Positions 7,667-11,719 of a stretch of DNA of 32,014 nt are shown here, piece by piece (the first letter of the stretch is position 1; every line of letters begins with the position of its first letter). Under the pieces are notes generated by a model, which was not told the DNA's origin, searched no databases, and was given only the letters and a program-made list of their open reading frames with translations. The stretch is from a virus, in IMG/VR virus record IMGVR_UViG_3300032294_000492, positions 1-32,014 of that record; one strand, given 5' to 3'. Both the position numbers and the translations under genes were made by a program.

Positions 7667-8098
7667 ATGAACGAAGAACTAAGAAACGAATTAGTGCAAT
7701 GTTATAAGAATAATTTGCAAAATTTACGAATACTTCACAGGACGTTAGTAAATGCCAAAATTATAACAGAAGATTTTGCAGTTAGTTCAGGAATCACAGA
7801 CATAAAGCCAAACAGATTGGTTGAATTAGTACAGGACGTTTTTGAAACCGACATTGTCGCAAAGAACAGAAAACAGTCAACCATATTTGCCCGCAAAGCT
7901 GCGGCATACATTTTAAGAAAATACACTCAATTATCTTTAAATGAAATTGCACCTTTAATTGGGGTCGGCGACCATACAACAGTTATTTACAATATTCAAA
8001 CCGCTTCGGATTTAATGGACACCGAAGATTGGTACAGAGAAAAATTAATGCAAATTGAAGAAGATATTGAAAATTATAATAACTTTGTAAAGAAATAA
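7667..8098 (+). CDS. Stand-alone DnaA domain IV (DnaA-box-binding) protein
   Basis: A 143-residue protein whose residues about 46-117 match DnaA domain IV: FARKAAAYILRKYTQLSLNEIAPLIG followed by GVGDHTTVIYNIQTA, equivalent to the DnaA signature GGRDHTTVLHA. There is no AAA+ ATPase domain, so it could bind DnaA-box-like DNA without ATP-driven opening. It lies just before a structured RNA (8105-8190) and the replication initiator-like gene with iterons (8530-8571). It may recruit or compete with host DnaA, or act as a repressor at such sites. The N-terminal 45 residues are helical and unassigned. Confidence 0.85.
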   Translation: MNEELRNELVQCYKNNLQNLRILHRTLVNAKIITEDFAVSSGITDIKPNRLVELVQDVFETDIVAKNRKQSTIFARKAAAYILRKYTQLSLNEIAPLIGVGDHTTVIYNIQTASDLMDTEDWYREKLMQIEEDIENYNNFVKK

Positions 8099-8104
8099 AT
8101 AAAA

Positions 8105-8190
8105 GCGTTATGGTACAACGCAGTTGAAAATATATTGGGTCAACGGATTCACGGCAAGTACCATTTGCCGAAGTCCCGCGACCCTTTTTT
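8105..8190 (+). ncRNA. Structured RNA with two kissing hairpin loops and terminal U-tract
   Basis: This 86-nt stretch fills the gap between the DnaA-domain gene and the initiator-like gene. Hairpin 1 is GCGTT (8105-8109), loop ATGGTAC (8110-8116), AACGC (8117-8121). Hairpin 2 is CGGCAA (8152-8157), loop GTACCAT (8158-8164), TTGCCG (8165-8170), enclosed by an outer stem GGGTC (8137-8141)/GACCC (8180-8184) and followed by six T (8185-8190). The two 7-nt loops are exact reverse complements, so they can kiss. It may be a regulatory leader with a terminator, or a separate small RNA. The start at 8196 is 6 nt after the T-run. Base-pairing is seen in sequence; function is inferred. Confidence 0.7.
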
Positions 8191-8195
8191 AATTT

Positions 8196-8897
8196 ATGGC
8201 TATATTTAGGAAAATACACGTCAGTTTTTGGAAGGACGAATTTATTGAAAGTCTGACCCCTGAACAGAAGTTTTTTTATCTGTATTTAATGACTAACGAC
8301 CGTACAACACAATGCGGGATTTATGAAATTACAATAAAACAAATGTGCTATGACACAGGTTACAACGAAGACACAATCAAAAAACTAATTGAATTTTTTA
8401 CGAAATGCGGAAAAATTCGTTATTCTTTGGTAACTAAGGAAATGGCAATGAAGAATTGGGCGAAATACAATGATTCAACTTCGCCAAAGGTAAAATCGTG
8501 TATTACAAAGGAACTTTTAAAGGTAAAAGATACAGTATTGATACAGTATGCATACAGTATGGATACACATACGCAAGAAGAAGAAGAACAAGAAGAAGAA
8601 GAAGAAAAAGAAGAAGAACAAGAAAAAGAACAAATTGATTTTAAAATTTTGTTTTTAGATAAGATTGAACCATTTAAAAGTTTATTAGGGGATTCATACC
8701 AAGAATTTATTGATTATTGGTGCGAATCGTCAAAAAGTGGTAAATTACGTTATCAATCAGAAAAATTTTTTGAACCGAAGCGTCGCGTTAATACGTGGCT
8801 TCAAAACAAGGTAAAGTATGGAAATACAAAAAATACTGACGCAACCGCTGCAAGTCGCAAAAGAATGCAAGACTTACAAAATTGGGTTAATAGCTAA
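8196..8897 (+). CDS. Replication initiator/replisome organizer-like protein, contains iterons
   Basis: A 233-residue protein with the layout of phage replisome organizers. An N-terminal winged-helix region (MAIFRKIHVSFWKDEFIESL to about residue 110) contains the pattern LTPEQKFFYLYLMTNDRTTQCGIYEI typical of DnaD/RepA-like initiators. It is followed by a Glu/Gln-rich linker (about 127-147) and a C-terminal helical domain (FKSLLGDSYQEFIDYW ... WLQNKVKYGN). The DNA that encodes the junction to the linker carries iterons (8530-8571), as in lambda O, whose gene contains the origin. ATG 8196 follows the structured RNA directly. It overlaps the next gene by 80 bp. Likely role: origin binding and loading of the host helicase. 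Confidence 0.75.
   Translation: MAIFRKIHVSFWKDEFIESLTPEQKFFYLYLMTNDRTTQCGIYEITIKQMCYDTGYNEDTIKKLIEFFTKCGKIRYSLVTKEMAMKNWAKYNDSTSPKVKSCITKELLKVKDTVLIQYAYSMDTHTQEEEEQEEEEEKEEEQEKEQIDFKILFLDKIEPFKSLLGDSYQEFIDYWCESSKSGKLRYQSEKFFEPKRRVNTWLQNKVKYGNTKNTDATAASRKRMQDLQNWVNS
8530..8571 (+). repeat. Iteron array, candidate replication origin
   Basis: Three perfect copies of the palindrome ATACAGTAT (8530-8538, 8541-8549, 8552-8560) and a degenerate fourth, ATACACATA (8563-8571), recur at exactly 11 bp. Because 11 is not a multiple of 3, each copy is read in a different frame, so the repeat is not explained by a repeated peptide. It is followed by a purine-rich strand-biased tract (8573-8636) and an A+T-rich stretch (about 8637-8660). 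This order resembles the lambda origin within gene O. Confidence 0.7.
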
Positions 8898-9561
8898 CGA
8901 AGACCTGCCAATTGTCGAAGCGTTTAAAGGCGACAAATTAAACTTAGTTTCGCCCGTTACATTAAGGGAAAACTTAGCTTATATTTTTACTTTAATAGGT
9001 TTGACCCGTTTGCCGGACAAAATGGAATTGGAAGTAATTGAAGATTACATTCGTACAACTTACCCTTATTTTACAGTACAGGAAATGCGCATTGCTTTTA
9101 AAATGGCAATTCAGGGACGATTAGAATGCAATACAGACCATTATGAAAAGTTTTCGCCTAAATATATATCCCAAATTTTAAACGCCTACAAAGTGAAAGC
9201 AAACGAAATTCGCCGTAATTTACCCCCGCCGCCTGAACCGCCTGTAAAGCAATTGACAGACGACGAAATTGTTGAATTCACTAAAAATGATTGGTTGACA
9301 GGTAAACGTGAAGATTTTAACCGTGTTTTTAATGCTGACAAAGTATTTGCAATCCTTTTAAAACAAGGGAAATTAAAGTTTACAAAAGAACAAATATTAG
9401 AAACGATTAAAGTTGTACGTGAAGACAATTTATACAGACTTAACCGAATGAATCCTATTGAAGCCAAAGAATTCAGCAAAAGAATAAAAAATGAAGATTA
9501 TATTGAATCACAATGTAAAAAATTAGCGTTAGTTAAATATTTTGAAAATTTATCAAATTAA
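8818..9561 (+). CDS. Hypothetical replication-associated protein
   Basis: A 247-residue protein starting inside the end of the initiator-like gene (80-bp overlap). The first ~30 residues are encoded by the overlap. The core (residues about 45-125) is helical with an LAYIFTLIGLTRLPDK then FTVQEMRIAFKMAIQGRL pattern, a proline-rich linker (NLPPPPEPP, about 136-144) follows, and the C-terminal half is helical. Phage genes in this position often encode helicase loaders or primosomal partners, but there is no Walker A motif here, so it would not be a DnaC-type ATPase. Function unassigned. Confidence 0.7.
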   Translation: MEIQKILTQPLQVAKECKTYKIGLIANEDLPIVEAFKGDKLNLVSPVTLRENLAYIFTLIGLTRLPDKMELEVIEDYIRTTYPYFTVQEMRIAFKMAIQGRLECNTDHYEKFSPKYISQILNAYKVKANEIRRNLPPPPEPPVKQLTDDEIVEFTKNDWLTGKREDFNRVFNADKVFAILLKQGKLKFTKEQILETIKVVREDNLYRLNRMNPIEAKEFSKRIKNEDYIESQCKKLALVKYFENLSN

Positions 9562-11237: not shown

Positions 11238-11719
11238 TGGCTAATTTTATACACCCAACCGCCATAATTGGCGACAACGTTATTATGGGCGACAACAATT
11301 ACATTGGCGCTTATTGTATTATTGGCGACCCCGCAGAACATAAAAAATATTGGGGTCAACCAAAAGGCAAAGTTATAATTGGTAACGGCAATATGATAAC
11401 AGGGTTAGTTACTATTGACGCCGGAACGGAAGACCCAACCATTATTGAAGACAATTGTTTCATAATGAAGCACGCGCACATTGGTCACGATTGTAGAATT
11501 ATGAATGACGTTACGATTAGTTGCGGCGCAAAAATTGGCGGTCATTCTATTGTTGGCGAACGATCTAATATTGGATTGAATGCAGTATTACACCAATTCA
11601 GCATAATCAAAAAGGGTTGTATGATTGGTGCAAGCGCTTTTTTTAAAGGCGAATCAGAACAGGAAATGAAATATGCCGGCGTGCCTGCGCGCAAGCTTGG
11701 TTCAAATATAAGAAAATGA
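11237..11719 (+). CDS. LpxA-like left-handed beta-helix acyltransferase
   Basis: A 160-residue hexapeptide-repeat protein with close similarity to the catalytic part of UDP-N-acetylglucosamine O-acyltransferase LpxA. It has KHAHIGHDCRI (His81, His84, Asp85), IGGHSIVG (His103) and VLHQFSII (Gln120), which match E. coli LpxA His122, His125, His144 and Gln161 at a constant offset of 41. The YWGQPKG segment matches the LpxA KYAGEP loop. The C-terminal helical domain of LpxA is missing (160 against 262 residues). Two glycosyltransferase genes follow directly, with a 4-bp overlap. The substrate could be a nucleotide sugar with an acyl or acetyl donor. Lipid A synthesis itself is unproven. Confidence 0.85.
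   Translation: MANFIHPTAIIGDNVIMGDNNYIGAYCIIGDPAEHKKYWGQPKGKVIIGNGNMITGLVTIDAGTEDPTIIEDNCFIMKHAHIGHDCRIMNDVTISCGAKIGGHSIVGERSNIGLNAVLHQFSIIKKGCMIGASAFFKGESEQEMKYAGVPARKLGSNIRK

Follow-up and report, generated by a model that had tools for sequence, protein, structure and literature searches.

A kissing-loop RNA between a promoter motif and the replication genes of apparent Bacteroidota phages

Between two replication genes of a phage lies a short sequence that can fold into two hairpins with complementary loops, which raises the question of whether it is a genuine RNA element and what it might control. The window analyzed here, the whole 32,014-nt stretch of a virus record, encodes siphovirus-type head, portal, terminase, and tail-fibre genes. 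On its plus strand, a gene with a DnaA C-terminal DNA-binding domain (7667–8098; Pfam Bac_DnaA_C, E = 7.6e-14) is followed by a replisome organizer/DnaD-like initiator (8196–8897; PHROG 6251, 'replisome organizer DnaA-like', E = 2.9e-48 for residues 1–120). The gap between them, given as 86 nt in the first-pass annotation, measures 97 nt (8099–8195), and the element occupies positions 8105–8190. Comparison with relatives indicates that it is a real, previously undescribed class of structured phage RNA, whose structure and position are established comparatively and for which a regulatory function can be proposed.

All features of the element lie on the plus strand. At its 5′ end is hairpin H1 (8105–8121; −4.7 kcal/mol), in which the stem (8105–8109 with 8117–8121) closes the 7-nt loop 1, ATGGTAC (8110–8116). 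An A/U-rich linker (8122–8136) leads from H1 to helix P2; its 3′ end is a recurrent (T)ATTG-type sequence directly before P2, and both its length and this 3′ sequence are alike in the aligned group-A relatives. P2 is formed by GGGTC (8137–8141) and GACCC (8180–8184). Nested within it are P3, for which folding predicts pairing of GGA (8145–8147) with TCC (8174–8176) within internal loops, and the P4 hairpin (8152–8170), in which CGGCAA (8152–8157) pairs with TTGCCG (8165–8170) around loop 2, GTACCAT (8158–8164). Loop 2 is the exact reverse complement of loop 1, the two providing the 3′ and 5′ strands, respectively, of a kissing helix. P2 is followed by a terminator-like U-tract of six T (8185–8190), 5 nt upstream of the initiator start codon. 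The first-pass annotation had placed both loops at exactly these positions, and the nesting that it described, with the second hairpin inside GGGTC/GACCC and six T thereafter, is borne out as well.

That such an arrangement is unlikely to arise by chance, as had been surmised from the window, is supported by dinucleotide shuffles, in which about 0.017 pairs of hairpins with exactly complementary 7-nt loops are expected per 32-kb strand; a scan of the window for such pairs returned solely the site at 8105–8190 and its own reverse complement. A stricter scan, additionally demanding a promoter box, P2, and a U-tract, gave 9 matches, each at the replication locus, in 621 kb (both strands) from 10 phage contigs, and 7 matches in four genomes versus 2 in 1.58 Mb of shuffled sequence. 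Together, the shuffles and the counts in the four genomes rule out a chance origin. Folded alone, the second hairpin, H2, reaches −22.1 kcal/mol (z = −4.2), and the whole leader has a z of −2.3. Loop 1 of the window also opens a reading frame, ATG GTA CAA CGC AGT TGA, but since the other loop types do not contain this ATG...TGA frame, a leader peptide was rejected.

We collected about 350 IMG/VR loci, using as queries the protein of the upstream dnaA-domain gene together with the initiator and three of its relatives. Their gene-flanking stretches display the same layout in different letters. A structural scan yielded 97 distinct sense elements, whose loops fall into 20 types, including the pairs ATGCAAC/GTTGCAT, ATTGCAG/CTGCAAT, GTCGCAT/ATGCGAC, GTCGGAT/ATCCGAC, GTAGGAT/ATCCTAC, GTTGCAG/CTGCAAC, and GTGCGAG/CTCGCAC, and a T-tract lies 3′ of P2 in every element kept. 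A structural alignment was made of 46 distinct elements of the main group, its rows chosen for exact loop complementarity; P3, the register of which differs between relatives, was left out of the covariation count. Standard pairs occupy 99.9% of the 1,052 cells, which stem from mutually related phages and hence do not count as independent events. Changes on both sides occur in 22 of the 25 pairs, with all four helices (H1, P2, P4, and the kissing helix) covarying, and the covariation score of 0.805 compares with 0.06–0.12 when the partners are slid by 1–3 columns. Double changes were observed at all six aligned stem pairs of H1, at all seven of P4, and at four of the five of P2, whose outermost pair is G-C in 46/46 elements. 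In the kissing helix, five of the seven pairs vary, each time by a double change; U at position 2 and A at position 6 of loop 1 are invariant in the main group, and all 20 loop types have T at position 2. Covariation in both stems and both loops, which the first-pass annotation had suggested as a check, is thus found in the 46 aligned elements.

Because the alignment rows had been preselected for exact complementarity, the loops were retested using the downstream start codon alone as an anchor. Complementarity was 7/7 in 47 of 48 distinct upstream regions, partial loop matches did not occur, and the remaining region had no hairpin pair in the stretch tested. Loss of complementarity without compensation, the outcome that had been named as damaging to the idea, is therefore not what the relatives display; they keep the pairing by compensatory change. 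The alignment further contains 37 G-U cells over all helices, with 26 in P4, and no A-C cell in P4 or elsewhere. The presence of G-U pairs in the absence of A-C pairs indicates that the selected molecule is RNA of the plus strand and argues against a fold at the DNA level. In a subgroup (L139, L150, L154, L182, and loci like them), H1 sits directly on an additional stem that also covaries, TTAAC/GTTAA becoming TTAAG/CTTAA; this stem shortens the linker and may be a competitor structure.

A covariance model located the element, normally one copy per phage, in 42 of 49 sequence records, almost all of viral origin; the one Bacteroidota genome out of 396 that has it is a Chitinophagaceae MAG containing phage-like contigs. 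Unannotated copies are also present in the cultured Flavobacterium phages elemoC (one), tooticki6-1 (two, at 11590 and 12625 of L387), and hattifnatt9-1 (three, at 9358, 13299, and 14334 of L388, before a helicase gene, a NUMOD4 endonuclease gene, and the ORF preceding the initiator), which makes the element directly testable. The two tooticki6-1 copies have different loop pairs, and the loops of the three hattifnatt copies are GCTTCGAC, GTCGTCG, and GTGAGACG; a distinct loop pair for each copy is expected if each must pair with itself. The annotated phage collection contained no DNA-level similarity to the element. Among annotated phages with related initiators, a scan of the regions near the initiator found no convincing element in Tenacibaculum JQ, Porphyromonas phage005b, Geobacillus E2, Exiguobacterium 137, Cellulophaga phi19:3, Olleya Harreka, and Vibrio 1.074.O.

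The window, L007, and L017 are identical from P2 to P4 (48/48), though dnaA in the latter two is 82–83% identical to that of the window, while L001 and L005 have a different RNA type (35/48) despite a dnaA that is 95–97% identical. Discrete RNA allele types (window 8105–8184, L001, L005, L007, and L017) are thus out of step with the divergence of the flanking genes. To judge from these sequences, the RNA behaves as a cassette, which could result from recombination, from strong constraint, or from selection acting on types. A separate observation among the relatives is a 117-nt match to the tRNA model (L091:3580–3696), some 45 nt beyond the length of a normal tRNA, possibly through an insertion.

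The gene after the element is mostly a replication initiator and sometimes an HNH endonuclease (L017, L284, tooticki, hattifnatt) or a helicase; PDDEXK-like genes and small ORFs are found in this place in other relatives. In L017 (3438–3936; L318 derives from the same phage), an HNH endonuclease gene lies exactly between the U-tract and the initiator, occupying the initiator's place beside the leader, and the second copy in L284 has a NUMOD4-type HNH gene downstream. Occurrence before HNH endonucleases and a helicase means that the element is not bound to one gene, so that the control of initiator expression put forward in the first-pass annotation is plausible but not exclusive. The downstream initiators combine three unrelated N-termini with a common C-terminus (window 8196–8897; L018:692; L025:3511), and their N-terminal swap point coincides with the junction of RNA and start codon. 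Midway through the initiator gene, a Glu/Gln/Lys-rich low-complexity stretch (window 8566–8630) separates the variable N-terminal part from the conserved C-terminal one.

Upstream of H1, within the 3′ end of the dnaA-domain gene, the window contains the plus-strand sequence TAACTTTG (8080–8087), a match to TAnnTTTG. This motif serves as the −7 box for the primary sigma factor of Bacteroidota, as confirmed by RNA-seq in Flavobacterium johnsoniae (PMC7366714). It was found upstream of H1 in 91 of the 97 distinct elements, against a background of about 3.8% per 49 nt. The box of the window overlaps codons for a conserved Asn-Phe; because it overlaps conserved codons in dnaA-type loci, the window included, its conservation is weaker evidence there. 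Among the elements whose upstream gene is not a dnaA-domain gene, it is present in 58 of 60.

From the start of the T-tract to the ATG, the distance is 7–12 nt in 93 of the 97 elements, which leaves no room for a second promoter. Transcripts from the putative promoter would thus have to pass the U-tract to reach the initiator, favoring an attenuator-like leader, and a hairpin with a U-tract between promoter box and first gene is indeed the arrangement of leaders with an intrinsic-terminator attenuator. P2 measures only 4–5 bp in the main group and was not flagged by a terminator pattern scan because internal loops interrupt its stem. No conserved, mutually exclusive antiterminator or alternative stem was found in the main group. 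At L204:1430–1590, a phage locus possibly outside Bacteroidota, a similar layout is accompanied by sequences resembling a TATAAT box and a Shine-Dalgarno motif; the 3′ strand of H1 is also repeated directly there, and this repeat could pair in an alternative stem.

We propose, as a judgement that is evenly balanced, that the element is a promoter-proximal, cis-acting leader of the phage replication operon, in which kissing and the terminator-like hairpin gate transcription. Transcription would start just upstream of H1, which would fold first; its loop would then pair with loop 2 as the second hairpin emerges. P2 and the U-tract, which resemble an intrinsic terminator and almost abut the start codon of the first gene, may halt RNA polymerase, and the kissing helix, by influencing the closure of P2 in one direction or the other and perhaps in response to a trigger, would set whether or when they do so. 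Such transcription attenuation would time initiator expression, and the same module would serve HNH or helicase genes in some phages. A simple coaxial estimate, as opposed to a computed model, of about 32 bp or near 90 Å against a linker of 14–15 nt suggests that kissing and P2 can coexist with the linker taut. Given that the loops always match despite changes in their letters and that the element is situated before replication genes, many phages that appear to infect Bacteroidota probably use RNA folding to time the start of DNA copying. It is possible, and we say so tentatively, that the element represents a new class of portable RNA switch, in which loop–loop kissing of a 5′-terminal hairpin with a terminator hairpin gates an operon through swappable, distinct loop pairs. 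If so, a phage could have several independent copies, and the loop pairs may define compatibility types in co-infection.

The fold could instead act on translation or mRNA stability. Located 10 nt before the AUG, it would block or present the ribosome site or protect the 5′ end, a reading we consider rather unlikely, and the same holds for its version in which the U-tract is a ribosome-binding spacer and causes no termination. A hairpin where the mRNA probably begins would fit this reading, as would the maintenance of the 7–12-nt spacing in those 93 elements across different downstream genes, but the distance from U-tract to ATG widens to 26 nt in elemoC and 49 nt at tooticki gp35, and the element is farther from the ATG in L204 too. 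The 26- and 49-nt spacings favor a transcriptional role over one that purely masks the start codon.

There is a small probability that the transcript is a free, trans-acting RNA of about 85–95 nt, acting for example on the leaders of co-infecting phages in superinfection or copy control with a logic like that of P4 CI. Its own promoter box, its terminator-like end, and the discrete allele types (one shared by the window, L007, and L017 and another in L001 and L005) would be consistent with this, but these alleles could be merely recombining cassettes, no target was identified outside the element itself, and no lysogeny gene is present among the genes examined. It is quite improbable that the folded leader binds RNA polymerase and brings about read-through of downstream terminators, in the manner of HK022 put. 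Put likewise comprises two hairpins in about 70 nt after early promoters, similar to the two hairpins directly 3′ of the promoter box here, but its structure has no kissing loops (PMC9378689), and the second hairpin of the element is itself terminator-like. We regard as highly improbable that the transcript serves as a primer or that the fold forms part of an origin at the initiator gene: the element lies nearly always beside the replication initiator, but copies also precede HNH and helicase genes, and G-U without A-C indicates a one-strand RNA, not a DNA fold. An ordinary terminator of the dnaA-domain gene next to an accidental hairpin, as the order of features in the window might suggest, is to be dismissed, being refuted by the covariation of the kissing helix in 20 loop types and at odds with the many relatives that have a different upstream gene and an intervening promoter box.

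Control of early gene expression in Bacteroidota-infecting phages is poorly known, and the element, a compact RNA module used again and again, is very strongly supported by comparison. If termination is gated by the kissing helix, as in the leader that we prefer, the element would constitute an RNA-only regulatory device with interchangeable specificity, inform the timing of phage replication, and offer a natural set of distinct RNA switches.

The first-pass annotation knew of no RNA family with this layout, and Rfam 15 indeed gave no match in the window at gathering score, and in nine diverse relatives nothing matched the element even when E values up to 5 were allowed; no described RNA of this layout was found in the open-access literature, subscription literature and preprints being outside the scope of the search. 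Two analogies drawn from the window did not hold up. ColE1 RNA I and RNA II control replication through fully complementary 7-nt loops on two opposite-strand transcripts. The element resembles them in having 7-nt complementary loops beside replication control, but both of its loops are on one strand and one transcript, and nothing points to an antisense promoter: minus-strand TAnnTTTG, the one promoter type covered, occurs within 150 nt downstream in 3 of 97 elements versus 12% expected. With this motif not enriched, antisense control of the ColE1 type is not supported. The comparison with purine riboswitches does not hold: neither folding nor alignment shows a helix around the two hairpins, so that the three-way junction with a P1 enclosing kissing hairpins is absent, as is an Rfam match. 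The P4 CI and P1 C4 immunity RNAs are likewise short leader RNAs, of operons for replication or for an antirepressor; their changeable specificity of pairing in trans with separate leader targets results in immunity. The element shares with them the short leader of a replication operon and the changeable pairing specificity, but it pairs its own two loops with each other instead of binding a separate target.

The prohead pRNA of phi29 is likewise a phage RNA with two complementary loops, which form 4-bp intermolecular pairings in the packaging ring (PMC7357161); the element, in contrast, pairs over 7–8 bp, has a terminator-like end, and precedes replication genes. HK022 put adopts a V-shaped two-hairpin fold with an A9–G35 pair and a triplex contacting RNA polymerase (PMC9378689). 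Compared by description only, it has in common with the element two hairpins within about 70–90 nt directly after a phage promoter, but it lacks a loop–loop helix, and the second hairpin of the element bears a U-tract. The nearest mechanistic parallel is the L5–L13 interaction of the cobalamin riboswitch, in which loops kiss in cis within an mRNA leader, linking one hairpin to another that controls expression (PMC10907184). The element shares the cis kissing loop in a leader but, without an aptamer or Rfam match, it kisses two otherwise isolated hairpins, and it does so at phage replication genes.
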